Of a stretch of DNA of 64,000 nt, positions 2,315 through 26,931 are shown in pieces. The stretch lies in the NCBI GenBank assembly GCA_022113835.1, contig JAILWY010000010.1:6473501-6537500 (forward strand), read 5' to 3'. The translations under genes and the position numbers were made by a program. This DNA comes from Atopsyche davidsoni. Its lineage: Eukaryota; Arthropoda; Insecta; Trichoptera; Hydrobiosidae. Each line of letters begins with the position of its first letter. The first letter of the stretch is position 1. The notes under the pieces are model-generated. The model ran no database searches and was not told the origin of the DNA. It worked only from the letters and a program-made list of their open reading frames with translations.

Positions 2315-2538
2315 CTGCCAGGGTGGATCTCCCAGGGTACCAGCTCCCCAATTGGAGCTCACATATTGGAAACAGAAGATCAGATTAATAGCGAGCGAAT
2401 AAGTCTTAAAACGACAGCATCATCTTTAAGGACATGGCGAAAAACTCAAAGCAAAGCAAACAAGAAGCCTAGGAGCACAAAAATGCGAGTGAATAACCTC
2501 AAAGGATTTTGAATACCTCAAAACCTGTTGGACGGGAG
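2315..2538 (+). ncRNA. Candidate 5' exon of the hairpin-cluster host transcript
   Basis: A patch richer in G and C than its surroundings. It is preceded by a 3' splice-site-like tract (tatctttgcag, ending at 2314) and followed by a donor-like GGGAG|GTAAAA at 2538/2539. It lies directly upstream of the first hairpin, on the strand used by all the other exon-like modules. One frame is open through most of it, but the protein (Lys/Ser/Arg-rich at its end) matches nothing I know. Exon status is inferred from splice signals only. Confidence 0.35.
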
Positions 2539-2953
2539 GTAAAATTGTTAGTTATCGTGAAAACAGTAATATTTCAAAATATTTAGTAACAATTACCCCT
2601 ATTATGTTTAAAACCCCTTTTATTTTTTGTCACATGATTGTAAATTTCTTTTCGTGGATAAAAGAAGTACTCGGAGCAAAGAAAGCTTTTACTGAGAGAG
2701 AAATTTATTTTGTTTTTAGAATCGCCTATAAAATAGAAATTATATAGAATCTCCAATTACTCAAAAAACATAGTACATTTCAGTAACTCCTCTCTAAACA
2801 TTACTTGACATTAATTGCATCTCGCTTTAACATCAAAATCTCTATCTCTATATAAAAATTCACATGATCACTATGTTTGAAAACTCTAAAAGGATATGTT
2901 GGTGAAACTAGTCACAGTAAGAACACTTAACTATCTCAGTGATATATGAACAG

Positions 2954-3018
2954 TTTTCTAAAGAGAAACGCTCGTCGAGTGTATGATTTAATTCTCAACA
3001 TTGTATAACTCTTTTAGG
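2954..3018 (+). ncRNA. HP-C1 hairpin (weak member)
   Basis: Occupies the HP-C position after a ggttggtgaaact flank. The arms pair around CTAAAGAG / CTCTTTTAGG with several mismatches, so this is the poorest member of the family and may be decayed. Confidence 0.35.
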
Positions 3019-3071
3019 TCCATTATGGATGCAAGAAAAAATTCAAAGAAAATCTAATGAAGATTATTTTT

Positions 3072-3149
3072 ATCGTTTTTTATTAAGAATAATCTTACAT
3101 ATCATAATATTTGAAATATGGTTGTAAGTTATTCTCAATGAAAGGCAAT
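3072..3149 (+). ncRNA. HP-A1 pre-miRNA-like hairpin
   Basis: The 5' arm (AAGAATAATCTTACA) pairs with the 3' arm (GTAAGTTATTCTC), closed by cgttttttatt / aatgaaaggc. The loop carries the family motif atatttgaaat. The usual tail (tctacgcagcgacaaacat) follows. Confidence 0.55.
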
Positions 3150-3320
3150 AGTAGTCTACGCAGCGACAAACATCCACGCACTCACAGTGAAGCAGACGAA
3201 CCAACCCCGTGCTATATTTGGAGGCGTTCTTACAATTAAATACCTAGACTTATATACTTAACATAAATGATTTCTTACAGTTATAATAGGTAACATTCAA
3301 TAAGTTAGTACAATCGTCCG

Positions 3321-3381
3321 TTTCGGCTACAGATTTGGAGTAGTATATAATTATCCACTACCCCTTATCTGTTCCGTAATA
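3321..3381 (+). ncRNA. HP-B1 pre-miRNA-like hairpin
   Basis: Follows the family tag caatcgtc. TTTCGGCTACAGAT pairs with ATCTGTTCCGTAATA, and GGAGTAGTA with TCCACTACCCC, leaving a short AT loop. The stem is over 22 bp with few mismatches. The tail agaagactcgtacacatcag follows. Confidence 0.55.
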
Positions 3382-3607
3382 GAAGACTCGTACACATCAG
3401 CATAAGACTACAGAGAAAGAAACTAAAAAATCTGCTAAACCAGCCAATAACATATTAAATGTGCACTTTTGAATACAGGCTTTTTTTCTATCTACGGTAT
3501 TCAGATTTATTATAGGCAACATATCTCTACGAAGCTACAAACAGCAACGCACTTATCAGGGTGCAAAGAGAGAGAGCAACCCCTTGATAGACGCCATGGT
3601 ATAATTT

Positions 3608-3686
3608 ATTATTTTTTATAAGTATTTTTACGATTTCTAATAATATTTGAAATATTAGAAACGCATTAATACTTATAAAAAGCAAT
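3608..3686 (+). ncRNA. HP-A2 pre-miRNA-like hairpin
   Basis: The 5' arm tttttataagtattttt pairs with aattaatacttataaaaa. The inner stem TTTCTAATA / TATTAGAAA is perfect. Conserved tail (ctctacgcaaccacagac) downstream. Confidence 0.55.
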
Positions 3687-3855
3687 AGAACTCTACGCAA
3701 CCACAGACGTCAACACTCTCATCAAGAAGCACAAAGTGCAGCCACGTGCTATCTACGTGAGTTTCCTTACAACTAAATACCCAAACATATTTACTGCACG
3801 TAATGAATTTCCTACAGTTACAACAAGCAACCTTTAAAAAAAAAAGTACAGTCGT

Positions 3856-3919
3856 CAATAAAAGGACATTTGTAATGTAGTATTCGAATATTCATTACAT
3901 TTCATTTGTACTTTGATTG
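3856..3919 (+). ncRNA. HP-B2 pre-miRNA-like hairpin
   Basis: Follows cagtcgt. CAATAAAAGGACATTTG pairs with the distal arm ending TTTGTACTTTGATTG, and AATGTAGTATT with ATTCATTACATT. Typical family size and tail (aatactcgtacaca). Confidence 0.55.
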
Positions 3920-4361
3920 AATACTCGTACACAACGGCCTCATCGAGCAGAGAGAGCAGCCCCGGGCTTTCGATTCATCGTCGTGAAGTCAGCACCGACC
4001 GCGTAAGTGATACTACCAGGAATGGCTCACAGGTATTGAACATAAGCTACTATGGTAATGAAATAGCGATTGTATATATCTAATATGAATAATTTTTTTC
4101 AGACACAGTGATTATAACTTCATAGAAGTCCCAATAATATACTAAGAAATACCCCTGCCAATAGTGCAGGCCAAGGACCAGAATTTTCATAACAGTAGTA
4201 CGCCGCCATTTACCCGCAAAAGATAAGTGATTCTGTATTCTTAGTGTATTTTAAAACAATAAACAAATTGATTCCTTATTGATCGAATCATTGGGTTTGT
4301 AAACATATGTTGAAAAATTTATACCAGATTATGATTCAAATAAAATTTATTTGTCTTACAG

Positions 4362-4470
4362 AAACTTCATAATATGAACTCGATGACTCAAAGTACGAAC
4401 CTAGAGACCGGAAACTGGCAATGCAGTGTAGAAGCTGCTTTCGGAAAACACAAAGATTTTAACGTGGTCG
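4362..4470 (+). repeat. Module E copy (repeated exon-like segment)
   Basis: Starts after an acceptor-like tgtcttacag and carries the core tcaaagtacgaacctagaga followed by ggcaatgcagtg and aaacacaaagatt. Related copies start near 6019, 7488, 8605, 9037, 11060, 13494, 15154, 15586, 17430, 22256 and 25304. One reading frame stays open in most copies. The 3' boundary here (AAC|GTGGTC) is only a weak donor. Confidence 0.5.
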
Positions 4471-4673
4471 ATTTAACTCCCATTAATCACCTTATTTTAA
4501 ATATCCTCATAACTAACCACCTAACAATCTAAGGATCTGTTTTTATCAATCAATATCGTTTTTTTTTATAACAAATTATAACTTGGTTGCATTTGAATAC
4601 ATCAACGTGATAGGTTTGAAATAATTGGCCACAATAAAACACTTGACTACCTCAAAAATAGATATGTGTACAG

Positions 4674-4743
4674 ATTTCGACAGAGAAACCTTTGCTAGGA
4701 AATGTGTATGGATTAAATCCTGATACTTGTCTCTCTGTGAAAT
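4674..4743 (+). ncRNA. HP-C2 pre-miRNA-like hairpin
   Basis: ATTTCGACAGAGAAAC pairs with the arm ending GTCTCTCTGTGAAAT, and the apical TAGGA pairs with TCCTGA. Upstream flank matches other HP-C copies (cacttgactacctcaaaaata). Confidence 0.5.
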
Positions 4744-5066
4744 AATTGAACCAATTGACATCACCGTGCAGAGAGAACTGCTCAAAAACGATCAAACCAG
4801 CCGATTCTCGACTCCCAGAGGAAGCTCCTCCTATGCACTCAATTTATTATCAAAAAATATTTTATTCAAGTTTTGAAATCGCATAATAATTACTCTCTTT
4901 GGAGGCCTTTGCGAGAAGTCCCTCCAGCGGATAATACATATTTGTGTATACAGTTATCAGAATAATCAATCTTATACTCGATTCGTTTGAAAATGCAAGC
5001 GAGATAGGTTGGTGAAACTCATCACAAAAAAATACTCAACTAACTCAAAAATAAATACTAGTACAG

Positions 5067-5135
5067 TTTTCAATAGAAAAACAATTGACGATAATGTGTA
5101 TTGATTCATTGCAGTCATTTGTTTTTCTATTGAAG
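5067..5135 (+). ncRNA. HP-C3 pre-miRNA-like hairpin
   Basis: Best HP-C member. TTTCAATAGAAAAACAATTG pairs almost perfectly with CATTTGTTTTTCTATTGAAG, and the stem continues through GACGATAATG / CATTGCAGTC. About 28 paired positions with 3-4 mismatches and a short apical loop. Confidence 0.6.
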
Positions 5136-5485
5136 GCTCGAACCCGTCACCGTGTTATAATAATAGAGCAGCTTACGAACCTCCAAACTAGTCATTGCTA
5201 ATATAAATTTACTATAAGATAATATTAATACCAAAATATTAAATATATTCGTATTAAAATCAAAAAGCGACAATAATCCTCTTCCTACCCACTAACATTA
5301 ACTAACTTGTCAAGGAGCAAAAAGAGAGAGCAACCCTGTAATAATCACCAAGTTTCACGATATAATTATATCTTAAATTTAATTTGGAAGAGTCATAATC
5401 ATCAACAGCGAAGAGCAGAGAAATCATCTCCCCAAACCCACCGAACACCCAGAAATTCCGAGATAACTCCAAGCTAATTAAATTT

Positions 5486-5560
5486 ATTATTTTTAAAAAG
5501 TATTTTTTTTTCCATTACATTTAAAACATTGGAAACGAATTAATACTTATGAAAAGCAAT
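5486..5560 (+). ncRNA. HP-A3 pre-miRNA-like hairpin
   Basis: Arms tttttaaaaagtatttttttt / gaattaatacttatgaaaa pair with G-U pairs and some mismatches. The loop region (attacatttaaaacattgg) is slightly altered. Conserved tail downstream. Confidence 0.45.
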
Positions 5561-5739
5561 AAAACTCTTCCGAACACAAACATCCATGCACTCATCAAAA
5601 AGCAGGGAGAGCAGCCCTGTATGCGCTTGATTACAATGAAATATTTAAACTTACTTACCAATCAAAATTGATTACTTACAGTTACAAAAATCAATGGTTA
5701 ATCTGTTATTTAATGTGCAGTCGTCAATGTGATAAAAAA

Positions 5740-6430
5740 CTTTATGGAAGTTCCAATGATATTCTATGAAATACCGCTGCCAGAAGTGTAGACCACAAAC
5801 AGAAGATTTCTTATCAACAGCATGCTTCATTTCACCCACATAAGATAAGTGATTAAGTATTCTGACTACTACGACAGTTTTTGTTTATTTATGGATTCTA
5901 AAAAACAATAAACAAATCGATCTCTTATTGATCGGATTGTTGATGCTTAAAACCTTTTAATCTATTTAAACACATTTTATATGGTTTATATTTATCTTTT
6001 AAATTATTTTTCTTACAGCAACCGTATGATGTGGGCTCGATGACTCAAAATACTACCCTGGAGACCAAAAACCGGCAGTCCAATGTAGAATCTGCTTCCA
6101 GAAACACAAAAATTGGAATGTGGTCGATTTATTCTCGATTAGTCAGGTGACTGTCAGGTGAGGTCAGGTAACCATGTATCACGATATTATTATCTCTTTG
6201 ATTTAAATTGGAAGAGTCATAATAATCAATCACGAAGAGTAGAGAAATCATCCCTTCAAACCCGCCGAATACTCAAATCTTCCAAGAAAAATCCAAACTG
6301 ACATTATTTATTGTTTTTTATAGGTATTAATTTCCTTCAATTGATATTTGATACAATGGGGTAACTTAATACCTATTAAAGGCAATAGAACTCTACGCAG
6401 CCACAAACATTCACGCTTCTATCAGAGAGC
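5740..6430 (+). repeat. Duplicated block (copy at 8790-9420)
   Basis: Contains module D, module E, the unusual tract cagGTGACTGTCAGGTGAGGTCAGGTAACC and HP-A4. The same succession recurs about 3 kb downstream with few differences, including the repeated GGTGA motifs. Confidence 0.7.
6310..6386 (+). ncRNA. HP-A4 pre-miRNA-like hairpin
   Basis: Clear stem: attgttttttataggtatta pairs with taatacctattaaaggcaat, and the inner CAATTG side pairs towards CAATGG. Loop motif gatatttgatac. One of the cleanest HP-A members. Confidence 0.6.
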
Positions 6431-6562
6431 AGAAAACAGCAACTCTGTGCTTACTTCGTGCGCCTCCTTACAATAAAATATCCAAACATATTTACTAAAC
6501 ATAATTGATTTTTTACAGTTATAACGAGCAAACCTAAAACTAAACATTTATGTGCAGTCGTC

Positions 6563-6625
6563 TAATAAGGTACATTTGCCTAGTAGTATTTCAATACTCA
6601 CTACTTTACATTTGTACTTTGACAG
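6563..6625 (+). ncRNA. HP-B3 pre-miRNA-like hairpin
   Basis: AAGGTACATTTG pairs with CATTTGTACTTTG, and TAGTAGTATT with ACTCACTACTTTA. Preceded by gcagtcgtc and followed by agaagactcatacacatcag, as elsewhere in the family. Confidence 0.55.
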
Positions 6626-7673
6626 AAGACTCATACACATCAGCATGTGAGAAAAGAAGCTAAAAAAAAAAAAGGTTTATGTTTCTATTACGATCAATAA
6701 TTACACTTGCTACCAGTAAAGTTTAACAAGTGTTCGTTTACATTCCTTTAAAATGACTTTCGTCCATAACTAATATATACATATTGTTCCAGATGTAGTG
6801 CCTTAAACTCCATAAAAGAACTAACGATATACTATGAAATACCCCTGCCAGTGTAGGCAACGGACAGGACCATCTATGATAGCAACACGCCGCCCTTTAC
6901 CCATATAAGACAAGTGATTCAGTATGTGTTGTAGTTGTGTTTGTTAAAGAGTTGTGTTGTGTTTTTTAAAGAGTTTTACAAACCCCAACAAACACCTTTA
7001 GTGACGCGATAAACTTCCGATAAAATTAAAAAAAGGAATGAATTTGGTATCCAATGGTATTTAATGCATTGGAATTAAATTTCTTCTTGTAAGTAAATCA
7101 ATTGCTATTTGAAAATTTGACCAAGCCACATTAATTAAAATAAAAAAATTTACCAACAGGAAAGATTAATAGATATTACCTTAAAAGCTTTACATTAGTA
7201 AAGTATTCGAATATAATTTTTTTAACAAATATTTTATTTCAGGTGCAATGATTAAAACTCTATAGAAGTAACGATGATTTACTATGAAACACTCCTGTCA
7301 GGTATGCAGGCCACGGACTAGAATTTTCATAACAGTAGCACGCATAAGATAAGTGATTCTGTATTCATACTGTATTTTAAAAAAATAAAAAAATAGATGC
7401 CTTATTTATCAAATCATTAGGTTTTTAAACTAAAGTAGAAAAATTTATAACAATTTATGGTTAAATTGAAAATTATTTTTCTTACAGAAACTTCATGATG
7501 TAAACTCGACGACTAAAAACACGACCCTCGAGACTAGAAACCGGCAATGCAGTGCAAAAGCTGTTTCGGGGAAACACAAAGATTGGAACGTATACATAAT
7601 TATACAATACTTCACAACTTTGAAAGATGACTCCTCCGCATAAATTGTAATTACATTTATTACCCTTTTTCAG

Positions 7674-7860
7674 TTCCCATTATGGATGGAAGATACTTCC
7701 AAGAACAACAAAAACAGATAATATAAATTGTTTTTTATTAGATAAAATTATGCAAACTATGATATTTAAAACATGGTTGCATGTTTTTTCCAATGAAAGG
7801 CAATAATAATCCACGCGGCGACAAGCTTCCAAGCACTCACCAGGGAGCAGACAAACCAGT
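7674..7860 (+). repeat. Hairpin-A exon-like module with acceptor
   Basis: Starts after a strong 3' splice-site-like tract (acccttttt cag, ending 7673) with TTCCCATTATGGATGG. It then holds HP-A5 and the conserved tail. Similar starts occur at 14240, 19477, 21413 and 24891, each after a pyrimidine-rich cag. This suggests that HP-A hairpins are exonic, or overlap exons, in a spliced RNA. Confidence 0.45.
7727..7804 (+). ncRNA. HP-A5 pre-miRNA-like hairpin
   Basis: attgttttttatta / aatgaaaggcaat form the base, with ATTATGCAAACTATG paired to CATGGTTGCATG above. The loop has gatatttaaaa. Near-copy at 14293-14370. Confidence 0.55.
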
Positions 7861-7971
7861 CCCGTGCTATTTTTGTACGCTTTCCTACAATTAAATGCCT
7901 AAACTGCCCAAAATTGATTTCCTACAGCTGCAGCACGTAACATTCAACCTGTTTACTTTGTACAGTCGTCC

Positions 7972-8033
7972 ATTCCGGGATTATATGTTGAGTAGAATTT
8001 TTTAATTCTCTACTTTTCATATAAACCCTAATA
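7972..8033 (+). ncRNA. HP-B4 pre-miRNA-like hairpin
   Basis: ATTCCGGGATTATATG pairs with CATATAAACCCTAAT, and GAGTAGAATT with AATTCTCTAC. Strong stem with a tiny loop. Sequence differs from HP-B1-B3 while pairing is kept. Related copy at 14521-14581. Confidence 0.6.
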
Positions 8034-8380
8034 GAAGACCCGTACACATCACCATGAGACTTTAGAGAGAGAATCTAAAAAAATCACCAAACCAGCACAA
8101 ACTCTATTAAATGTGTTCTTTTCAGTGCGAGTATATTTTTTATCTGAAGTATTTCCACTTATGAAAGGCATCAGATCTCTACGCAGCCACAAACATCAAC
8201 GCACTTGTCAGGATGCGAGTAGAGAGCAACCCCGTGATAGTCATCATGTACCACGATATTACTATCTCTTGATTTACTTTGAAAGAGTAATAATCATCAA
8301 CCACCAAGAGCAGAAAAATCATCCCTTCAAACCCACCGAATACTCAAAACTTCCAAGAAAAATCCAAGGCGACATTATTT

Positions 8381-8456
8381 ATTGTTTTATCTAGGTGGTA
8401 CTTTACTTTATTGATATTTGATTCAATGGAGTAATTTATCACTTAATTAAGGCAAT
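8381..8456 (+). ncRNA. HP-A6 pre-miRNA-like hairpin
   Basis: attgttttatctaggtggta pairs with tatcacttaattaaggcaat, a G/C-shifted variant of the family stem. Loop gatatttgattca. Near-identical copy at 14930-15005. Confidence 0.55.
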
Positions 8457-8734
8457 AGAACTCTACGTAGCTACAAACATCAACGCACTCATCAAGAATC
8501 AGAAGAAGCAGCCCCGTGCAGAAAGCAATAATAAAAGTAATCTCTCATTGTCCAAATTAGTAGGTTTCTAAACTATTTTACTATAATAATATTGTTTCTT
8601 ACAGCAACCGCATGATGTGTGCTCGACGACCCAAAGTACAACCCTGAAGACCAAAAACCGGCAAGGCAAATCTGTTCGTTTACATGATATTGAAATTCAA
8701 ATTGTTTTTAACTAACATGAATATATTATTTCAG

Positions 8735-8863
8735 GTGTAGTGATTAAAACATCATGGAGGTACTAATGATAAATAATAAAATACCCCTAGTAATATGCCA
8801 GAAGTGTAGGCCACAAACAGAAGATTTCTTAACAACAACATGCTTCACTTCACCCACATAAGA
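8735..8863 (+). repeat. Module D copy (repeated exon-like segment)
   Basis: Starts after tattatttcag with GTGTAGTGATTAAAAC and ends near acataagataagtgatt. Stop codons occur in all three frames near its start, so it is non-coding. Related copies start near 4103, 6793, 7243, 10847, 13258, 15284, 17195, 18938, 21128, 21978, 24608 and 26520. The 3' boundary lacks a consistent GT donor. Confidence 0.45.
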
Positions 8864-9327
8864 TAAGTGATTAAGTATTCTGACTACTAGGATAGTTTAT
8901 GTTTATTTATGCTTTCTATAAAACAATAAACAAATCGATCTCTTATTGATCGAATGATTGATGCTAATAACCTTTTAATCTATTTAAACACATTTTATAT
9001 GGTTTATATTTATCTTTTAAATTATTTTTCTTACAGCAACCGTATGATGTTGCCTCGATGTCTCTAAATACTAGCCTGGTGACCAAAAACTAGCAATCCA
9101 ATGCAGAGTCTGCTTCCAGAAATACAAAGATTGGAATGTGGTCGATTTATTCTCGATTAGTCAGGTGACTGTCAGGTGAGGTCAGGTAACCATGTATCAC
9201 GATATTATTATCTCTTTGATTTAAATTGGAAGAGTCATAATAATCAATCACGAAGAGTAGAGAAATCATCCCTTCAAACCCGCCGAATACTCAAATCTTC
9301 GAAGAAAAATCCAAACTGACATTATTT

Positions 9328-9404
9328 CTTGTTTTTTATAGGTATTAATTTCCTTCAATTGATATTTGATACAATGGGGTAACTTAATACCTATTAAAGG
9401 CAAT
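9328..9404 (+). ncRNA. HP-A7 pre-miRNA-like hairpin
   Basis: Same stem as HP-A4 (ttttttataggtattaattt / aacttaatacctattaaagg), carried in the duplicated block. Confidence 0.6.
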
Positions 9405-9613
9405 AGAACTCTACGCAGCTACAAACATCAACGCACTTGTCAGGGTGCGAGAAGAGAGCAACCTCGTGATTATCACCATGTATCACGATATTATTAACTC
9501 TTTGATTTAAATTGGAAGAGTCATAATAATCAATCACAAAGAGCAGAGAAATCGTCCTTTCAAACCCACTGAATACTCAAATCTTCCAAGAAAAATCCAT
9601 GCTGACAATATTT

Positions 9614-9690
9614 ATTGTTTTTTATAAGTATTAATTTGCTCCCATTGATATTTGGTACAATGGAGTAACTTAGTATTTATTAAAGCCAAT
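9614..9690 (+). ncRNA. HP-A8 hairpin (tandem unit 1)
   Basis: ttttttataagtattaattt pairs with taacttagtatttattaaag; the inner CCCATTG side pairs towards CAATGG. Loop atatttggta. Confidence 0.6.
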
Positions 9691-9863
9691 AGAACTCTAC
9701 GCAGCTACAAACATCAACGCACTCGTCAAGAACCAGAGAGAGCAGCCCCGTGCTATCTACGCATGAAGAGTCATAATAATCAATGACAAAGAGCAGAGAA
9801 ATCATCCCTTCAAACCCACTGAATACTCAAATCTTCCAAGAAAAATCCATTCTGACAATATTT

Positions 9864-9940
9864 ATTGTTTTTTATAAGTATTAATTTGCTCCCATTGATA
9901 TTTGGTACAATGGAGTAACTTAGTATTTATTAAAGCCAAT
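9864..9940 (+). ncRNA. HP-A9 hairpin (tandem unit 2)
   Basis: Same hairpin as HP-A8, 250 bp downstream; no difference seen within the stem-loop. Confidence 0.6.
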
Positions 9941-10113
9941 AGAACTCTACGCAGCTACAAACATCAACGCACTCGTCAAGAACCAGAGAGAGCAGCCCCG
10001 TGCTATCTACGCATGAAGAGTCATAATAATCAATGACAAAGAGCAGAGAAATCATCCCTTCAAACCCACTGAATACTCAAATCTTCCAAGAAAAATCCAT
10101 TCTGACAATATTT

Positions 10114-10190
10114 ATTGTTTTTTATAAGTATTAATTTGCTCCCATTGATATTTGGTACAATGGAGTAACTTAGTATTTATTAAAGCCAAT
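10114..10190 (+). ncRNA. HP-A10 hairpin (tandem unit 3)
   Basis: Same hairpin as HP-A8, 500 bp downstream. Confidence 0.6.
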
Positions 10191-10363
10191 AGAACTCTAC
10201 GCAGCTACAAACATCAACGCACTCGTCAAGAACCAGAGAGAGCAGCCCCGTGCTATCTACGCATGAAGAGTCATAATAATCAATGACAAAGAGCAGAGAA
10301 ATCATCCCTTCAAACCCACTGAATACTCAAATCTTCCAAGAAAAATCCATGCTGACAATATTT

Positions 10364-10440
10364 ATTGTTTTTTATAAGTATTAATTTGCTCCCATTGATA
10401 TTTGGTACAATGGAGTAACTTAGTATTTATTAAAGCCAAT
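10364..10440 (+). ncRNA. HP-A11 hairpin (tandem unit 4)
   Basis: Same hairpin as HP-A8, 750 bp downstream. The tail then diverges from the array and leads into a hairpin-B module. Confidence 0.6.
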
Positions 10441-10606
10441 AGATCTCTACGCAGCTACAAACATCAACGCACTCGTCAAGAACCAGAGAGAGCAGCCCCG
10501 TGCTATCTACGCATGCTTCTTTATATTTATATACATAAACTTACTCACTGCACGCAATTTTCAACAAGCAACCTTAAAAATCATTATTTTAAAGTCGTCA
10601 ACACAT

Positions 10607-10650
10607 GTACATTTGCATCGTAGTTTTCAAATATTCATTACCTTGTATAC
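10607..10650 (+). ncRNA. HP-B5 hairpin, shortened
   Basis: GTACATTTGCATCGTAGT pairs with ATTCATTACCTTGTATAC. The basal stem present in other HP-B copies has been lost through a deletion on the 3' side, so processing is doubtful. Confidence 0.35.
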
Positions 10651-11059
10651 ACCCTGGGAGCTAGAGAGCAGCCCTGGGTTGATACATCTTTAATTTTATT
10701 TTATTGGCGTGACGTCAGCGCTGACCGCGTAAGTGACAAGTCTATCTTAAATTTTTATTGTATTTTTGTTGCGAGCAACATTTGCATGTTCCAGGTGTTA
10801 GTTTACATTGCATTTGTATATATCTAATATGAATAAATTGTTTTAGGTGCAGTGAATTAAACTCGAGAAATGTTCCAAAGATTTGCTATGAAATACCCCT
10901 GCTAGGAATGCAGACCACAGACAGAAGCTTTTATGATAGCAACAAGCCGCACTTTACCCATAAAAGTTAAGTAACAACTATCTATTAAAAAATATTAAAT
11001 CTCGTTGACCGAATGATTGACACATTTCTTATAGTTTATTTTTCTGTATGTTCTTACAG

Positions 11060-11141
11060 CAAAGACGACTCAAAGTACGACTTTAGAGACCGGAAAACGG
11101 CAATACAGTACAGAATCTGCTTTGGGAAAACACAAAGATTG
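11060..11141 (+). repeat. Module E copy with both splice sites
   Basis: The only module E copy with a textbook donor. It starts after ttcttacag (ending 11059) and ends at GATTG|GTAAGT (11141/11142). A small deletion removes part of the cgcatgatg start. This is the clearest support for module E being a real exon. Confidence 0.5.
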
Positions 11142-11465
11142 GTAAGTAGATATAAAAATGGTAATTTCTTTAAATTTGGTTATAATTGAAAAAATTCATT
11201 TCAATATTCAGAGCCAAACTATTGCCTCGAAAATAAATCAAAGACTTTTTCTTTATGCATCAAGCAAATTTTTTTGTTTTTATATCTAATAAAAAATGTC
11301 TTTCTTTTTGTTGCGAAGAACACATCAATATCAGCCATAATGTAATAACAGTACAAATAACTGTTTATTTAGGCAGTCATGTTTTTTTATAGAATTTTGT
11401 GAACACCAACAAATACCTTTATTGATGCCAAAAACTTCCAATAATATCCCCAGCAGTTATTATAT

Positions 11466-11544
11466 ATTGTTTTTTATAAATATTAATTTGATATACTATG
11501 ATATTTGATACATTGGTATTAAATTAATATTTATTAAAGGCAAT
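11466..11544 (+). ncRNA. HP-A12 pre-miRNA-like hairpin
   Basis: tttttataaatattaattt pairs with aaattaatatttattaaagg over about 20 bp. Loop gatatttgataca. Tail actcaacgaagccacaaacat follows. Confidence 0.6.
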
Positions 11545-16915: not shown

Positions 16916-17807
16916 AGAACTCTACGCAGCGACAAACAACATCAGGGAGTAAAGAAATCAGTCCCACTTTACTCAACTCTCGCGTTAACACATATCTATT
17001 TTAATTTCATAGACTTGGTATCAGCACCGATCATGTAAGTGATAAGATATGTATTTTTAATGTGAGCAACATTTGCACCTACTTTCGGTAAGATCAACGG
17101 GTGTTGCCTAAACTATTCAATGTTTAAGAATTTTTTCGGTTACATGATATTGAAACAACATTTTTATATAACTTATTTAAATATTTTGTTTCAGGTGCAG
17201 TGAATAAAATTTTATAAAAGTTCTTATGGTTCATAGAAATTCAAGCCACGGACAGGACTTTCCATGACAGCATCCCTTCGGCCTGTACCGATATAAGATA
17301 TGTGTTTTAGTATTATTCTTATTATGACAGTTATATTTAATATATTTAATGGCTTTTTGATGATATCATTGGGTTTTTAAACCATTTGACCGTTTTATTA
17401 GTTTACGATTATCTTAATTTTTCTTACAGCAACCGCATGATGCGTACATGACGATGTGTCAAACACCGAACCTCATGATGTCAGAATTGGTATGTCCATG
17501 AAAGAGAATTTTTTTATTGAAGATTATTCAAGAGTTTCAGTTTTTTTAAATAAATCAGCTAACAATTCATTTTCAGGATTAATATACAGCAAAACACATA
17601 AGGAAAAACTAAGCACATGGCTTGCTTGACGTAATATTGAACCCTTGATGAAGTGGCGAAAAACAGATGGTTTTGTTACAACATTGAAAAAAAAAAATTG
17701 CATAATATATATAATGGTAATAATATATTTTAATGCATTTTTCAAATCCCAACAAACTCTGTTTTGGATGCCATAAACTTCCAAGAAAAACCCGAGCAGA
17801 TATTACT

Positions 17808-17887
17808 TTTTGTTTTTTATAGGTGTAAATTTGTTATTCAATGATATTTGGTACGTTGGCAGCAAATTTACACTTATTAAAGGCAAT
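17808..17887 (+). ncRNA. HP-A19 pre-miRNA-like hairpin
   Basis: ttttataggtgtaaatttg pairs with caaatttacacttattaaag over about 19 nearly perfect positions. Upper CAATG is opposed to GTTGG. A strong member. Confidence 0.6.
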
Positions 17888-18258
17888 AGTACACTACACA
17901 GTTACAAGCATCTACAATATTATCAAGAAACGAAAATAGCATGCCCCTAGAAATATAGACGTATTTTGTAACACATATTTTTGAAATATATTAGTCCATA
18001 TCATATGTTCATTGTATTTCAAAAAGTAGATCAATCACTTTCGTTTAAAATTTGGCCGAGTCATCATTATTGCACAAATCGTTGTGAAATAACGTAAATA
18101 ATACTGGAATTTTTAATATTGAAGCTAGATAGCACAAATATTTTATCAAAACTATACATTCAACGCAGCAATATTATTTTTAAAACATTTGTTATACACT
18201 ATACAATCCCATTTTTGATGCAAGAAACTTCCAAGAACATCCCTAACAGATAATAATT

Positions 18259-18336
18259 ATTGTTTTTTACAAGGAATATTCTTACATACCATGATATTTG
18301 AAACATGGTTGTAAATTATTCCTAATGAAAGGCAAT
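18259..18336 (+). ncRNA. HP-A20 pre-miRNA-like hairpin
   Basis: aaggaatattcttacatacc pairs with ggttgtaaattattccta; base ttgtttttta / taatgaaaggcaa. The sub-type resembles HP-A1. Confidence 0.6.
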
Positions 18337-18620
18337 AGTAATCAACTCAGCTACAAAAATCCCCGCACTCACCAGGGAGCAGGTAAACCAGCCCCGTGCT
18401 TTTTTCGTACGCTTCCCTACAATTGAAAACCAAAACTTATTAATCGCACATAATTGATTTTTTAAAGTTACAACACGCAAAATTCACCCAGTTTTTTTTT
18501 TGTATAGTCGTCCATTTCGTGTACACTTGAAGAGTAGTATATATTTAACCAGCCCATACTTGCTGCAAGTAATTGATTACTTACAGTTTCAACATGCAAC
18601 CTTACTTTTGTACAGTCGTC

Positions 18621-18682
18621 AATTCAAGTGCATTTGCATGGTAGTATTTAAATATTAATTACTTTGCATTTGTACTTTAATT
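18621..18682 (+). ncRNA. HP-B9 pre-miRNA-like hairpin
   Basis: AATTCAAGTGCATTTGCATG pairs with TTTGCATTTGTACTTTAATT, and GTAGTATT with TTAATTAC. A truncated HP-B (5' arm only) lies just upstream at 18510-18550. Confidence 0.6.
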
Positions 18683-18937
18683 AAAGGCTCGCACACATCG
18701 ACCTCATCGAGCAGAGAAAGCAGCCCCAGGCTTCTCAACGAGCGTGTTGATGCATCTTTATTTCTTTTCATAAACGTGACGTCAGCGATGTTCGCGAAGA
18801 TGACAAGTTTTTCTAATAAATTGGTGTATTATTGTAGTGCAATATTTGCACTTACTACCAAGAAAGGTCTACAGTTTTTGGTTTATATTTAATTGAAATA
18901 CCATTTGAATGTTACAAACCTGAATATATTGTTTCAG

Positions 18938-19048
18938 GTGCAGTAAATAAAACTCCATAACTATGATATACTATGAAATACCCCTGCCAGTATAGGCCAC
19001 GGACAGGAGCATTCATGATAACAACACGCCGCCCTTTACGCATATAAG
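18938..19048 (+). repeat. Module D copy
   Basis: Begins after attgtttcag and carries atactatgaaatacccctgc, then ggccacggacaggag, the most conserved parts of the module. A small internal stem forms around CCTGCC and GGC. Confidence 0.45.
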
Positions 19049-19544
19049 ATAAGCGATTAAGTATTCTGACCATAACAAAAGTGTTTTCAAAATACATTTT
19101 TTTATAAACAATATACAAATTGATCTCTCATGGATCGAATTATTGGGTTAACAAACTATTTTACTTCCATATTTTTTAATTTTATGTTTATGAATATGAT
19201 CAGATACTATGATAAAAAGTGATAGCTAACTTACATAGAAGTGACTCTCATCAACTGTGGAATACCCCTGCTAAAAATGCAGCCCCATCCTTAACCCGCT
19301 TAAATATACATACATTTAACTAAATGTTTTAAAAATTTTAACCTTGAATTTTTCATTCATAAAATTGTGTAATGTAAATTGAATCTCTATTGCGAAATTC
19401 ATATAAAATGCAGAAAAAAAAGTCGATACTTGATTAGAGCAGCAGTATTTTAAGCTGATATTTTTCAATTTTTCAGAACGGCCCTCACTATGGATGATGG
19501 ACATTTCCGTAATCCATAGTGAACGTCCCCAGAAGATATTATTT

Positions 19545-19623
19545 GTTGTTTTTTATAAGTGAAAATTTTGCCTGGCATGAAATTTTATACATGCCAAAAG
19601 AATTTCCACGTATAAAAGGCAAT
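19545..19623 (+). ncRNA. HP-A21 pre-miRNA-like hairpin
   Basis: ttttttataagtgaaaattt pairs with aatttccacgtataaaagg; the upper stem GGCATG / CATGCC is perfect. The leader contains ccctcactatggatg. Confidence 0.6.
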
Positions 19624-19770
19624 AGCACTCTACGCAGCCACAAACATCCACACACTCATCAGGGAGCAGAGGTATTCTTTATATATTTATCCCCAAACTA
19701 ACTTCATTCACATATTTGATTACAGTGACAACAAGCAACGCTCAATCAGATCTTTTTTTGTGCTGTCGTC

Positions 19771-19834
19771 AATTGTGGTATTAATATATTGTATTGTTCA
19801 TATATATGCACTACATTTTATCTATACCACGCTT
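19771..19834 (+). ncRNA. HP-B10 pre-miRNA-like hairpin
   Basis: AATTGTGGTATTAATATATTGTA pairs with CTACATTTTATCTATACCACG. Preceded by ctgtcgtc, followed by gaaggcttgtacacatcatc. Confidence 0.55.
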
Positions 19835-20313
19835 GAAGGCTTGTACACATCATCATGAGACTGCAAAAAGAGAAGCCCAACAAAATCGATTCAGCCCATT
19901 TTATAATAAATGTGCATTTTTTTCCTACAGTCGTATTTTCTATCTGCATTACATATATTATTGAACAGTTTTCTACATATAAATATTTGATAAGTAATGT
20001 GCGTATGATCTCATAACTTTTTATTGGTTTCTTGTAAGGAAGACTCGTGTCCATCGACTCAGATAGGTTTTAACCAGTATTTTGATCTTTGAACGGGTTA
20101 ATTAGATAATTAATAATTGTTAAAACGGTGTTCTTATCCTTATTCTAATAATATTTTACAAATGCTGTAAACAAATTATATTTATCGGTAAGTTTTAAGT
20201 CTTCAATAAAATAAGATTGTATTATTTAAATTCTGCGTTATAACGCAAAATTCCAGCCACATAGTGGATGCCAGAAATCTTATAAAATAAAACATCTCCA
20301 GAAAATATAATAT

Positions 20314-20391
20314 ATTGTTTTTATAGGTGTAAACTTGAACTGTGGTGATATTTAATACATGACAAGTCAATTTGCACATATTAAAGGCAAT
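20314..20391 (+). ncRNA. HP-A22 pre-miRNA-like hairpin
   Basis: tttttataggtgtaaacttg pairs with caatttgcacatattaaagg; the upper arms (ctgtgg / gacaag) are weaker. Confidence 0.55.
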
Positions 20392-20809
20392 AATACTCTA
20401 AGCAGCCACAAACATCAGAAGCACTCGTCAGGGAGCAGAAAGAGAGTAGCCCCGTGATAATCAGCATGTTTATTTTATTTTCATGGTTTGCGGTATGACA
20501 AGTATTTATCAGGTGTGTATTTTTCCACAGAGATAGTGATTAAATTTTTGTTGTAAAATTTCTTGTTTCAAAAATGTGTATTGTATTTTGAAAAAATAGA
20601 TCAACTGTTTCTGTGCAAAATATGTCTGGCCATTATTATTGCAGAATTCCTTTGAAATTAAATAACGTATATACTTGATATTTCTTGAAAAAAATTAAGC
20701 AGCAAAAACTTCACAATGTGCACAGCACTATTTTTGTACTACTATTTTTCGAATTAAACTCCATCATGGATCCCAGAGACACCCAAGAAAATCTCAAGCA
20801 AATATATTT

Positions 20810-20888
20810 GTTGTTTTTAATAGGTATAAATTAGACGTACAATGATATTTGACATATTGTGCAGTAATTTATGCCCATTAAAGCCAAT
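20810..20888 (+). ncRNA. HP-A23 pre-miRNA-like hairpin
   Basis: gttgtttttaataggtataa pairs with ttatgcccattaaagccaat. Upper TACAATG pairs with CATATTGT. Copies at 24289 and 26202. Confidence 0.6.
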
Positions 20889-21468
20889 AATACTCTACGC
20901 AGCCACAAACATCAGAATCACTCGTCAGGGAGCAGAAAGAGAGTAGCCCCGTGATAATCAGCATGTTTATTTTATTTTCATGGTTTGCGGTATGACAAGT
21001 ATTTCTCAGGTGTGTATTTTTATTTTCGATCAACATTTGCATTTACTATCAGGACAGATTACGGGTGTTAAATTACATGGTACTGAAATAACTTTTTGTT
21101 TATAACTAAAATGAATATTCTTTTTCAGGTATAGTGATTAAAACTCCATAGAAGTACCAATCATATTCTATAAAATTCCTCTGCCAGAAGTTCAGATCAC
21201 AGGCAAAAGTTTCCACGTAATCATCAAGCCCTTCTTCACCCACATAAGATAAGTGATCTTGTATACTGACTATTACAAATATTTTTTAATTTATTAAAAA
21301 TATCAAAGAAAAGTAAATACTTGAATATTGTGACACATATATATTAGAGCTGTAAAATGAATAAACTTAATGCTACACAAATTTGTCAAAAACATTTTTC
21401 TCACTTTCTCAGATTCCCTCACTATGGATACCGGAAATCTCCAAGAATGCCCCCAGAAGACATTATTT

Positions 21469-21547
21469 GTTGTTTTTTATGAGCGTTAATTTTACCTAGC
21501 ATGAAATTTGATACATGCTAAGAGAATGTACACTTATAAAAAGCAAT
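21469..21547 (+). ncRNA. HP-A24 pre-miRNA-like hairpin
   Basis: gttgttttttatgagcgt pairs with acacttataaaaagcaat, and CTAGCATG with CATGCTAAG. Copy at 24947. Confidence 0.55.
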
Positions 21548-21634
21548 AGCACTCTACACAGTCACAAATATCCACACATGTTTGATTATAATTACAACCG
21601 CCATCGATCGATCAGTTCTATGTTATGCAGTCGT

Positions 21635-21698
21635 CAATTGGGATATTAATAATATGTAGTGTTCATATATTCACTACAGATTATCTATACCCCGCTTG
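21635..21698 (+). ncRNA. HP-B11 pre-miRNA-like hairpin
   Basis: GGGATATTAATAATATGTAGTG pairs with CACTACAGATTATCTATACCCC. Its duplicate near 25110 has lost the 3' arm. Confidence 0.55.
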
Positions 21699-22770
21699 AA
21701 GGCTTGTACACATCATCATGAGACTGCAAAAAAAGATGCCCAATAAACAATCGAACCAGCCCATTCTATAATAAATGTGCACTTTTTCGTACAGTCGTAT
21801 TTTCTATCTGCAGTACCTTCCACACTTATCATAAAGACAAGCAACATATTAGCACTAATCAAAATAACGCAAAAATTTTCAACATTGGTATTTACTACCA
21901 GGAGAGATTAAAAGGTGTTCGTTGACATAGTATTTAAATAACGATTGTTTTTTAACAATATGAATATATTGTTTTAGGTGCAGTGATTAAAGACTGGTAT
22001 CAATGATATACTAGGAAATACCCCTACCAGGAGTGCAGGCCACGAACAGAAGAGGTCTTAACAACATCACGCCCCCCGTCACCCACATAAGATAAGTGAT
22101 ATAGTTTAAGGACTATTACGACAGTGTTTTAAATAATATGCTTTTTAAAAAATAATAAATAAATTGATCTCTCATTGTTCGAATATTTGGGTTTGCCTAT
22201 TTAAACAAATATATTCTATGGTTTATGTTTATCTTGAAAAATATTTTCTTCCAGCAACCGCATGATGTGTGCTCGATGACCCAATACTCGACCCTGGAGA
22301 CCAAAAACCGGCAATGCAAAGCAAAATCTGCTTCCATAAACACATAGATTAGTACGTGGACGGTGGAGACTTTGAAAAAAATCTGTGATAACTCTTGCTT
22401 TCAGGCTGAAGTACTCAGGTCATTTTGAACAAGTCTCACCTTTTTATCCAATTATTAACATGAACGTGAAAGGATATCCGATCACGGACAAAAGCTTCCA
22501 TGACAGCTCTATACTCCTCTTCACCCACTTAAGATAAGTGATTTATGATCCTAACTTGATTCGTCAGATTATTGCATTTTTGACACATTTTACTTATTTT
22601 AACACATTTTTTATAGTTTGTATTTATCAAAAATATTTTTTTTTTCTTTCAGCAATCTCTAGGGAAGATTCGTATGCATCAACTTAAGCAAGCCAACACC
22701 CTCTGGCTAGCCATCATTTACCACATGAATTATATCGATATCATTAGAGATTTTTCAAGAAAGCTATTAA

Positions 22771-22854
22771 ATACTGTTTTCCCCAGAGATAAATCTGCCT
22801 ACAATAGTGTTTAAGTTTATTGTCTATCAGGTTAATCTCTAGGGAAGATTCGTA
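22771..22854 (+). ncRNA. HP-D1 pre-miRNA-like hairpin
   Basis: CCCCAGAGATAAATCTG pairs with CAGGTTAATCTCTAGGG, and CAATAG with TTATTG at the top; base TACTGTTTT / AGATTCGTA. About 28 paired positions and a small loop. Confidence 0.65.
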
Positions 22855-23015
22855 TGCATCAACTTTAGCAAGCCGACACCCTCTGGCCAGCCATCATTTA
22901 CCACATTTTCACAAGATTTTTATGAAAAAAGTTTTATTGTTATATTTTCTTCAGGTTAAATAACGATTTTGAATAATATCGATGTCATTAGAAATTTTTC
23001 ATGAAAACAATTTTA

Positions 23016-23099
23016 ATACTGTTTTCCCCAGAGATTAATCTGCCTTCAATAGTGTTTAAGTTTATTGTCTATCAGGTTAATCTCTAGGGAAGATTCGTA
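23016..23099 (+). ncRNA. HP-D2 pre-miRNA-like hairpin
   Basis: As HP-D1, but the 5' arm reads AGAGATTAATCTG, changing one pairing position. Confidence 0.65.
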
Positions 23100-23260
23100 T
23101 GCATCAACTTTAGCAAGCCGACACCCTCTGGCCAGCCATCATTTACCACATTTTCACAAGATTTTTATGAAAAAAGTTTTATTGTTATATTTTCTTCAGG
23201 TTAAATAACGATTTTGAATAATATCGATGTCATTAGAAATTTTTCATGAAAACAATTTTA

Positions 23261-23344
23261 ATACTGTTTTCCCCAGAGATTAATCTGCCTTCAATAGTGT
23301 TTAAGTTTATTGTCTATCAGGTTAATCTCTAGGGAAGATTCGTA
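23261..23344 (+). ncRNA. HP-D3 pre-miRNA-like hairpin
   Basis: Identical in the stem to HP-D2, 245 bp downstream. Confidence 0.65.
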
Positions 23345-23505
23345 TGCATCAACTTTAGCAAGCCGACACCCTCTGGCCAGCCATCATTTACCACATTTTC
23401 ACAAGATTTTTATGAAAAAAGTTTTATTGTTATATTTTCTTCAGGTTAAATAACGATTTTGAATAATATCGATGTCATTAGAAATTTTTCATGAAAACAA
23501 TTTTA

Positions 23506-23589
23506 ATACTGTTTTCCCCAGAGATTAATCTGCCTTCAATAGTGTTTAAGTTTATTGTCTATCAGGTTAATCTCTAGGGAAGATTCGTA
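23506..23589 (+). ncRNA. HP-D4 pre-miRNA-like hairpin
   Basis: Identical in the stem to HP-D2, 490 bp downstream. Confidence 0.65.
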
Positions 23590-23750
23590 TGCATCAACTT
23601 TAGCAAGCCGACACCCTCTGGCCAGCCATCATTTACCACATTTTCACAAGATTTTTATGAAAAAAGTTTTATTGTTATATTTTCTTCAGGTTAAATAACG
23701 ATTTTGAATAATATCGATGTCATTAGAAATTTTTCATGAAAACAATTTTA

Positions 23751-23834
23751 ATACTGTTTTCCCCAGAGATAAATCTGTTTTCAATAGTGTTTAAATTTAT
23801 TGACTGACAGGTGTATTTCTAGAGAAGATTCGTA
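23751..23834 (+). ncRNA. HP-D5 pre-miRNA-like hairpin
   Basis: Diverged copy: AGAGATAAATCTGTTTTCAATA is opposed to TATTGACTGACAGGTGTATTTCT. Several arm bases differ from HP-D1-D4 but the stem remains. Confidence 0.6.
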
Positions 23835-24288
23835 TGCATAAACTTTAGCAAGCCGACACCCTCTGGCCAGCCAATATTTTCCTCATTTTCATAAGATTTT
23901 TCTGAAAAGAGTTTTGGTATATTTTCTTTAAGTTTAAAACGACTTTGATATATATATCGATATCATTAGAGATCTTTCAGGAAAACTGTATAAATACTGT
24001 TTTCCACAGAGATAGTGACTAAATTTTTGTTGTAAAATTTCTTGATTCAAAAATGTGTATTGTATTTTGAAAAAATAGATCAACTGTTTCTGTGCAAAAT
24101 ATGTCTGGCCATTATTATTGCAGAATTCCTTTGAAATTAAATAACGTATATACTTGATATTTCTTGAAAAAAATTAAGCAGCAAAAACTTCACAATATGC
24201 ACAGCAATATTTTTGTACTACTATTTTTCGAATTAAACTCCATCATGGATCCCAGAGACACCCAAGAAAATCTCAAGCAAATATATTT

Positions 24289-24367
24289 GTTGTTTTTAAT
24301 AGGTATAAATTAGACGTACAATGATATTTGACATATTGTGCAATAATTTATGCCCATTAAAGCCAAT
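24289..24367 (+). ncRNA. HP-A25 pre-miRNA-like hairpin
   Basis: Duplicate of HP-A23, differing at one position in the 3' arm (gcaataattt instead of gcagtaattt). Confidence 0.6.
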
Positions 24368-24946
24368 AATACTCTACGCAGCCACAAACATCAGAAGCAC
24401 TCGTCAGGGAGCAGAAAGAGAGTAGCCCCGTGATAATCAGAACGTTTATTTTATTTTCATGGTTTGCGGTATGACAAGTATTTCTCAGGTGTGTATTTTT
24501 ATTTTCGATCAACATTTGCATTTACTATCAGGACAGATAACGGGTGTTAAATTACATGGTACTGAAATAACTTTTTGTTTATAACTAAAATGAATATTCT
24601 TTTTCAGGTATTGTGATTAAAACTCCATAGAAGTACCAGTCATATTCTATTAAATTCCCCTGCCAGAAGTTCAGATCACAGGCAAAAGTTTCCATGTAAT
24701 TGTCAAGCCTCCCTTCACCCACATAAGATAGGTGATTTTGTATACTGACTATTACGAATTTATTTAATTTATAAAAAATACCAAAGATAAGTAAATACTT
24801 GAATATTGTGGCACACATATATTAGAGCTGTAAAATGAATAAACTTAATGCTACACAAATTTGTCAAAAACATTTTTCTCACATTCTCAGATTCCCTCAC
24901 TATGGATGCCGGAAATCTCCAAGAATGCCCCCAGAAGACATTATTT

Positions 24947-25025
24947 GTTGTTTTTTATGAGCGTTAATTTAACCTAGCATGAAATTTGATACATGTTAAG
25001 AGAATGTACGCTTATGAAAAACAAT
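24947..25025 (+). ncRNA. HP-A26 pre-miRNA-like hairpin
   Basis: Duplicate of HP-A24 with small changes (cgcttatgaaaaacaat in the 3' arm). Confidence 0.55.
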
Positions 25026-25880
25026 AGCACTCTACACAGTTACAAATATCCAGACATGTTTGATTATAATTATAACCACCATCGGTCGATCAGTTCTTTT
25101 TAATGAAGTCGTCAATTGGGATATCAATAAAATGTGGTGATCATATATTCACTACAGTATTACGACTATAACGACAGGTTTTTTATTATATGCTTTTTAA
25201 AAAATAATAAATAAATTGATCTCTCATTATTCGAATTTTGGGTTTACCTATTTGAACAAATTTTCTATGGTTTATGTTTATCTTGAAAAATATTTTCTTC
25301 CAGCAACCGCATGATGTGTGCTCGATGACCCAATACTCGACCCTGGAGACCAAAAACCGGCAATGCAAAGCAAAATCTGCTTCCATAAACACATAGATTA
25401 GTACGTGGACGATGGAGACTTTGAAAAAAATCTGTGATATCTCTTGCTACCAGGCGGAAGTACTCAGGTCATTTTGAACAAGTCTCAACTTTTTTCCAAT
25501 TATTAATTGGAACATGAAAGGATATCCGATTACGGACAAAAGCTTCCGTGACAGATTCATACACCTCTTCACCCATTTAAGATAAGTAATTTATAATCCT
25601 GACTTGATTCGTCAGATGATTGCATATTTGACACATTTGACTTATTTTAACATATTTTTTATAGTTTGTATTTATCTTAAATATATTTTTTTTTCTTTCA
25701 GCAATCTCTAAGGATTCGTATGCATCATCTTTATCAAGCCGTTACCTCTGGCCAGCCATCATTTACAACATTTTCACAAGGTTTTTATGAAAAAAGTGTG
25801 ATTGTAATATTTTCTAAAGGTTTAATAACGATTTTGAATAATATCGATATCATTAGAGATTTTTCAGGAAAACTATTTTA

Positions 25881-25963
25881 ATACTGTTGTCCTCAGAGGT
25901 AAATTTGTCATCTATTGTGTTTAAATTCATCAGATGACAGATGTACCCCTGAGGAAGATCGTA
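25881..25963 (+). ncRNA. HP-D6 pre-miRNA-like hairpin, diverged
   Basis: TCCTCAGAGGTAAATTTGTC pairs with GACAGATGTACCCCTGAGGA, and ATCTATTG with CATCAGAT. Both arms differ from HP-D1-D5 at several opposed positions while the stem is at least as good. The best compensatory-change case in the window. Confidence 0.65.
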
Positions 25964-26201
25964 TGCATCAACTTTAGCAAGCCGACACCCAATAAAATAA
26001 ATCAACTGTTTCTGTGCAAAATATGCCTAGCCATTATTATTGTAAAATTCCTTTAAAATTATATAACTTGATTTTTCTTAAAAAAATTAAGCAAAAAAAA
26101 CTTCACAATGTACACAGCAATATTTTTGTACTACTATTTTTTTAATCAAACCCCATTATGGATACCAGAAACATCCAAGAAAATCTCAAGCAAATATATT
26201 T

Positions 26202-26280
26202 GTTGTTTTTAATAGGTATAAATTAGACGTACAATGATATTTGACATATTGTACAATAATTTATGCCCATTAAAGCCAAT
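26202..26280 (+). ncRNA. HP-A27 pre-miRNA-like hairpin
   Basis: Third copy of HP-A23. 5' arm unchanged; the 3' arm reads gtacaataatttatgccc. Last hairpin of the cluster; a final module D at about 26520 ends it. Confidence 0.6.
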
Positions 26281-26931
26281 ACTACTCTACGCAGCCACAA
26301 ACATCAGAATCACTCGTCAGGGAGCAGAAAGAGAGTAGCCCCGTGATAATCAGCACGTTTATTTTATTTTCATGGTTTGAGGTATGTCAAGTATTTCTCA
26401 GGTGTGTATTTTTTTTTCGATCAACATTTGCATTTACTATCAGGACAGATAAAGGGTGTTAATTAACATGGTACTAAAATAACTTTTTGTTTATAACTAA
26501 TATGAATACTCTGTTTCAGGTATAGTGATTAAAACTCCATAGAAGTACCAATCATATTCTATAAAATTCCCCTGCCAGAAGTTCAGATCACAGGCACAAG
26601 TTTCCACGTAATCGTCAAGCCCCCCTTCACCCACATAAGATAAGTGATTTTGTATACTGACTATTACGTTTATTTTAATTTTAAAGATATCAAAGAAAGT
26701 AGATACTTGAATATTGAGGCACATATATAATAGAGCTTAAAAATTAACAAACTTAAAACTGCACAAATTTATCATATAAAAACAATAAACCTCACGATTT
26801 ATTAAGAACTACTAGTACCTTAAAATGTTTTTTAAATAAAACTTCTAAATTTAAAATAATAAAGTAACACAAAGAGATATGTATAGCGGAATTGCGACAA
26901 TTGCAGTTTCCGTGTTTTGGATCTCCTAGAG

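Follow-up and report, generated by a model that had tools for sequence, protein, structure and literature searches.

A 24-kb stretch of the genome of the caddisfly Atopsyche davidsoni (Trichoptera; Hydrobiosidae) carries a tandem array of some 50 hairpins set in exon-like modules, and in the largest hairpin family, HP-A, evolution preserves the way the hairpin folds, together with its loop and base, rather than the letters of the stem, which suits a structured modular RNA better than a microRNA (miRNA) cluster. The array lies in the window analysed here, i.e. 64,000 nucleotides of contig JAILWY010000010.1 (C10:6473501-6537500 in a 370.7-Mb, 80-contig assembly, GCA_022113835.1). We give about an even chance to the locus being a tandemly expanded, spliced noncoding RNA with constant-base, constant-loop hairpins, probably a platform for protein binding; that it is transcribed and spliced, binds protein or has a function at all is our inference from the DNA sequence.

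HP-A copies are supported by a fold test and by a covariance model, except for the decayed copy 14, which is supported by the fold test and the module map described below. The covariance model, itself built from 22 of these copies, was searched against the window together with 30 kb upstream and 10 kb downstream, and found 26 plus-strand matches (3071-26281, each at E <= 7e-7); outside the locus, the best match in this search space reached only E 0.016, on the minus strand, in L009. Together with the decayed twenty-seventh copy, these matches bear out the "about 27" HP-A stem-loops counted by a first-pass annotation of this DNA (positions are those of the window):

3071..3150, + strand, HP-A 1
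3607..3687, + strand, HP-A 2
5485..5561, + strand, HP-A 3, the weakest among the 26 covariance-model matches
6309..6387, + strand, HP-A 4
7726..7805, + strand, HP-A 5
8380..8457, + strand, HP-A 6, identical to the copy at 14929
9327..9405, + strand, HP-A 7
9613..10441, + strand, HP-A 8-11 (starts 9613, 9863, 10113, 10363), identical, in a 250-nt tandem array of 4
11465..11545, + strand, HP-A 12
12004..12085, + strand, HP-A 13
12433..12506, + strand, HP-A 14, decayed (z -3.05), missed by the covariance model
12911..12989, + strand, HP-A 15
14292..14371, + strand, HP-A 16 (33 pairs, -35.1 kcal/mol)
14929..15006, + strand, HP-A 17
16838..16916, + strand, HP-A 18
17808..17888, + strand, HP-A 19
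18258..18337, + strand, HP-A 20
19544..19624, + strand, HP-A 21
20313..20392, + strand, HP-A 22
20809..20889, + strand, HP-A 23
21468..21548, + strand, HP-A 24
24288..24368, + strand, HP-A 25
24946..25026, + strand, HP-A 26
26201..26281, + strand, HP-A 27

Compared with 200 dinucleotide shuffles per hairpin, all 27 HP-A copies fold at z < -2 (mean -5.8), as do 19 of the 23 hairpins of the remaining families, HP-B, HP-C and HP-D (mean -4.3; the exceptions start at 4668, 10593, 19963 and 2946). The resulting 46 of 50 confirm the hairpins reported earlier; of the control 80-nt tiles, with 60 shuffles each, z < -2 was reached by 5 among the 102 inside the locus and by 11 among the 155 elsewhere in the window. 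Of 22 HP-A copies, 21 have a stem of 27-35 pairs and the remaining one has 21 pairs, with a lower stem formed by AUUGUUUUUUAU / AUUAAAGGCAAU and a loop, mostly of 10 nt, resembling AUAUUUGAUA. The consensus fold of the whole exon-like block contains the HP-A hairpin alone, its flanks being unpaired.

Conservation within this hairpin is distributed unevenly. In an alignment of 22 of the 27 copies (leaving out the identical 9863, 10113, 10363 and 14929 and the decayed 12433), mean pairwise identity is 0.85 and 0.87 in the two sides of the lower stem and 0.84 in the loop, compared with 0.555 and 0.52 in the arms, and the would-be seeds comprise 16 distinct heptamers on the 5p side and 16 on the 3p side. 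The 60-nt 3' flank matches the hairpin in conservation (0.667 and 0.683; 21 copies, leaving out 5485), with 0.41 beyond it. Hairpins of about 33 bp with an apical loop and single-stranded flanks, such as characterise a miRNA cluster, are thus present in HP-A, but a mature arm or seed conserved among the members is not. A miRNA family is usually recognised by its conserved arms. The primate cluster C19MC, to which the locus had been likened, consists of some 46 hairpins among repeated noncoding exons and grew through tandem duplication, and its miRNAs share arm sequences; the comparison is reasonable for layout but not for sequence conservation, as the arms are the least conserved part of HP-A.

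That the hairpins are instead Drosha/Dicer substrates, from which one primary transcript would yield miRNAs or hairpin small interfering RNAs (siRNAs), is the main alternative, less probable than the structured-RNA reading but a serious one. The stems of about 30 bp, the mostly 10-nt loops and the unpaired flanks would suit a primary miRNA, and to this extent the miRNA-type reading of the first-pass annotation stands; the would-be mature arms of HP-A, however, are least conserved. Rapid evolution of the upper stem occurs in some X-linked testis miRNAs (PMC2660371), and the variable HP-A arms therefore weaken this explanation but do not alone exclude it. Tandem hairpin RNA (hpRNA) clusters also exist in insects, and many of their primary transcripts are spliced; as set out in PMC10317233, those of Drosophila would resemble the present locus in having tandem hairpins on one transcript, changing copy number and spliced precursors, with 20 copies of hp-CG4068 in D. 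melanogaster and, in D. simulans, 13 hp-tHMG hairpins within ~27 kb. According to that source, however, the hp-tHMG copies are nearly identical, unlike those of HP-A, the arms of which are ~0.54 identical while loop and base are kept. Nor was target homology found for 36 HP-A arms (18 of the 22 copies) in 293 kb of non-locus sequence, i.e. <0.1% of the genome: no near-perfect target was present, the fewest mismatches being 4, and the arms did no better than shuffled or reversed-arm controls, which reached 3-4. A search of Rfam 15 at the gathering threshold returned no match in the locus and one transfer RNA (tRNA) only, consistent with the earlier statement that no described family with these stems was known.

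The pairing itself, as opposed to the letters that form it, is maintained across HP-A copies. In the 22-copy alignment 93.3% of cells are paired, compared with 77.4% after shuffling and 43-55% when partners are slid, and double changes occur at 13 of 21 pairs, in 73 cells against 25.7 in shuffles. A joint alignment of 19 of the 23 HP-B/C/D hairpins (without 10593 and 2946, because of their failed fold test, and without 23261 and 23506, identical to 23016) gives 87.1% paired cells vs 72.1% shuffled, and 47 double-change cells vs 18.5. If the plus-strand RNA is what matters, G-U ought to be better tolerated than A-C. In the HP-A arms, read on the plus strand in a symmetric alignment of 17 non-redundant copies, G-U outnumbers A-C by 63 to 19 (p = 1e-6), and a by-column count gives 32 vs 11 (p = 0.002) in HP-A and HP-B/C/D each; the excess of G-U over A-C on this strand points to plus-strand RNA. 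Substitutions between recent duplicates (five duplicate pairs, two of these overlapping) show HP-A to be constrained: HP-A paired sites changed at 8 of 375 positions, compared with 153 of 2631 in the predicted introns (Fisher p = 0.002), and the HP-A 5' flank (7/270) was also slower than introns. Gap columns were likewise rarer in HP-A plus the exon parts of A, E2 and E3 (7/1975) than in introns (48/2631, p = 3e-6).

The surrounding architecture was mapped using nhmmer with hidden Markov models built inside the window. Five module types (A, B, C, E2 and E3) lie on the plus strand between 3029 and 26660, in agreement with the single-strand arrangement and the interleaving with exon-like modules that had been reported; the A module is an exon-like block containing HP-A, and the B and C blocks contain HP-B/C/D hairpins. 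As is usual for near-palindromes, certain hairpins give minus-strand matches to their own profile as well. The order A-C-E2-E3 is full in three runs, at ~3.6-4.5 kb, at 6.3-7.6 kb (where E2 occurs twice) and at 10.3-11.1 kb; other runs have only part of it. The four hairpin families originally proposed reduce to two: A is distinct, but the profiles of HP-B, HP-C and HP-D match one another, and these, with their joint covariation, are one superfamily, whilst the A and C modules have related 3' flanks. The count of 11, 5 and 6 hairpins, i.e. 22, given earlier for HP-B/C/D nearly equals the 23 intervals tested here, of which 19 pass the fold test; the span had been given as 2315..26760, and the last module ends at 26660.

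2315..2539, + strand, putative unique leading exon (by eye; after TTTGCAG, before GTAAAA; unrepeated in the module map)
3029..26660, + strand, array of A, B/C/D, E2 and E3 modules (nhmmer map and two whole-genome DNA searches)
3308..21718, + strand, HP-B-like hairpins, starts 3308, 3846, 6552, 7960, 12626, 14510, 16212, 18610, 19760, 21625
10593 (start), + strand, HP-B-like hairpin, weak fold (z -0.25)
2946..20058, + strand, HP-C-like hairpins, starts 5061, 13807, 15864; weak folds at 2946 (z +0.44), 4668 (z -1.94), 19963 (z +0.31)
22771..25973, + strand, HP-D hairpins, starts 22771, 23016, 23261, 23506, 23751 (245-nt tandem array) and 25881
4097..26660, + strand, overall span of 17 E2 matches (nhmmer map), starts 4097, 5736, 6787, 7237, 8729, 10841, 13253, 15278, 17189 (E2 1-9) and 18932, 19227, 21123, 21972, 22448, 24602, 25495, 26514 (E2 10-17)
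4353..25406, + strand, overall span of 12 E3 matches (nhmmer map), starts 4353, 6009, 7478, 8595, 9027, 11051 (E3 1-6) and 13487, 15144, 15576, 17420, 22245, 25294 (E3 7-12)

Candidate splice acceptors are well kept in the exon-like modules E2 and E3: CAG in 12 of 12 E3 matches, and AG in 12 of the 13 E2 matches with an intact 5' end. The other E2 matches are one recombinant and three that are truncated or start inside the module (16 of the 17 matches were listed for acceptors, the 5'-truncated 19227 being left out, and 14 copies were aligned). Two tandem arrays, of 250 nt x4 at 99% identity and of 245 nt x5.3 at 95%, indicate recent growth, and the remaining duplicates within the locus are 72% to 96% identical; the locus is accordingly tandemly expanded and, as the first-pass annotation held, still expanding. 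It can be called young only in part, since pairing persists even between arms that share little identity from copy to copy. A test for loop-loop kissing between A and B/C hairpins gave a weak signal over 8 neighbouring pairs, equalled by 2% of 300 shuffles, as did B/C loops with themselves (3.3%), several tests having been made. Upstream of some A modules there is also a small inverted repeat, CACGATATTATTATC..., for which 3 of 7 locus intervals (5340-5410, 6180-6233, 8252-8304, 9198-9251, 9484-9537, 12782-12835 and 14801-14853) fold at z < -2; it does not enter the hairpin counts.

In two whole-genome DNA searches the array is confined to this locus: the two queries placed 29 of 30 and 23 of 23 matches here (the counts being lower bounds), the sole outside match, on C26, corresponding to 2709-2832, which is outside the modules; the copies across the genome that a dispersed transposable element would have are thus not found. 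A search of viral contigs with a single 24-base pattern taken from the 3' flank of A gave 0 matches, and no published description of the locus was recognised in the literature searched, mostly listings and the opening lines of abstracts.

Several observations weigh against a spliced, structured noncoding RNA. By eye, no AG acceptor is obvious immediately before about half of the A modules, and conservation of splice donors is poor, with GTAAGT in three copies only. For HP-B/C/D, two of the five covariation measures, namely how many pairs carry double changes and how many pair types occur, were matched by 24 and 18 of 500 shuffles respectively, and G-U does not significantly exceed A-C in the symmetric test (42 vs 28, p = 0.12). 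More generally, related sequences may beat shuffles without any structure, and it is for this reason that the comparison of G-U with A-C and the recent-duplicate test matter. In the latter, HP-B/C/D hairpins (16/153 changed) were no slower than introns, nor were the A 3' flank (25/358), E2 (25/491) and E3 (18/380), so that substitution constraint is seen only in HP-A and its 5' flank.

It is unlikely that the array is neutral, with tandem duplication multiplying the hairpins, template-switch correction of imperfect inverted repeats maintaining pairing at the level of DNA, and no selection on an RNA. Arrays up to 99% identical indicate active duplication, and the unconstrained HP-B/C/D hairpins in recent duplicates are as expected on this account; yet HP-A paired sites change more slowly than introns, the HP-A excess of G-U over A-C on the plus strand is unexpected from a DNA mechanism, and the conserved HP-A loop and the splice acceptors also speak against it. 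Distinctly unlikely, in our estimation, is a diversifying repertoire of guides for small RNAs, in which a fixed base and loop, as processing signals, would hold interchangeable paired arms, much like an artificial library of short hairpin RNAs in a miRNA backbone. The HP-A arms are constrained in recent duplicates, not hypervariable, which argues against rapid diversification at present, whereas a repertoire that is old and was slow to diversify would still be compatible.

We consider it very unlikely that E2 and E3 are decayed or short coding exons for small peptides, with the hairpins as by-products, for although E2 frame 1 has an excess of synonymous single changes (0.341 vs 0.195 expected; 14 copies, transition bias uncorrected) and one E3 frame has 3 stops in 264 codons (8 of 12 copies, 4 being dropped), stops occur in all E2 frames (best 18/482 codons), frame-breaking insertions and deletions are present, two E3 frames show a similar synonymous excess (transition bias again uncorrected) and a 119-aa open reading frame (ORF) across modules has no homologue candidate. 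A second E2 run dropped 5 of the 14 copies. The modules are accordingly treated as noncoding, short peptides being excluded with low confidence only.

A Pfam scan of 10 ORFs gave a single match (RVT_1) and no recognisable host gene in the flanks, and those flanks examined are rich in mobile-element fragments. These include non-LTR (long terminal repeat) retrotransposon fragments at 58779-59340 (minus strand) and 62159-63836 (plus strand), with the reverse transcriptase domain RVT_1 in 58779-59204. ORF comparison shows large inverted repeats: portions of 54.9-55.7 kb are present again in opposite orientation at 60.6-61.5 kb (window 54939-61502), and 56.5-59.2 kb has an inverted counterpart within 10 kb beyond the downstream end of the window (L012 127-3512). 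About 15 kb upstream of the window there is a 538-aa open frame, transposase-like by eye (L010 2562-4175, minus strand). An inverted repeat at 36436-36523, almost perfect over ~40 bp and closed by a loop of 4 nt, is unrelated to the array, and a tRNA gene at 41638-41711 (within 41535-41711) overlaps a 17-nt inverted repeat with its other arm ~105 nt upstream.

The assembly contains two mitochondrial lineages, of a caddisfly (C54) and of a chironomid midge (C33), among contigs C33, C46, C54, C61, C75, C67 and C77. The COX1 of C54 is nearest to Psilochorema bidens (90%) and Apsilochorema hwangi (88%), both Hydrobiosidae, among the best 120 of 7999 matches; several caddisfly mitochondrial copies occur on contigs exceeding one mitogenome, with the same COX1 on C46, C61 and C75. 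The COX1 of C33 is chironomid (96%), and this contig comes plausibly from prey. The size of the assembly and the number of its caddisfly mitochondrial contigs suggest that C10 is of the caddisfly. No evidence was found that C10 is a sex chromosome; TIM, which is Z-linked in moths, lies on C20. The aphid Ya long noncoding RNA (lncRNA) was a first guess, from GC content and layout, and was rejected, the COX1 being nearest to caddisflies; the Ya genes of Myzus persicae are likewise tandem insect noncoding multi-exon genes (in part after PMC10174565), but the host here is not an aphid.

A tandemly expanded, structured noncoding RNA would operate as follows. A spliced noncoding transcription unit on the plus strand, or a head-to-tail set of such units, would have grown as exon cassettes were duplicated in tandem again and again. 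An HP-A cassette presents an isolated hairpin of ~30 bp between unpaired flanks; the lower stem and 10-nt loop of this hairpin are constrained in sequence, and its upper arms mainly to pair. The most economical function would be that of a multivalent platform, with one protein or complex recognising the base and/or loop that the hairpins keep constant, such that hairpin copy number may set the amount bound, in the manner of (and not homologous to) the roXbox stem-loops repeated in the roX RNAs of Drosophila. The lncRNAs roX1 and roX2 resemble the present case as noncoding RNAs with working repeated stem-loops and a short conserved motif in otherwise fast-changing sequence, and rescue by roX grows with stem-loop number (both after PMC4719309). 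The array differs in comprising ~50 stem-loops in 24 kb, and in motif, fold and host, the likeness claimed being one of design only; of that repeated-stem-loop design, the stem-loops and the conserved loop and base are found here, in the DNA.

Should the locus be transcribed, it would provide a rare case in which a repeated structured lncRNA is strongly supported by covariation within one locus of a single genome, and would supply one RNA element in dozens of natural versions. If the proposed function is correct, a protein that reads base and loop could be fished out directly, and the locus would show multivalent RNA scaffolds growing through exon duplication. Should the hairpins give rise to small RNAs instead, this would be a large and diverse insect cluster in which the processing signals are conserved and the guides are not.

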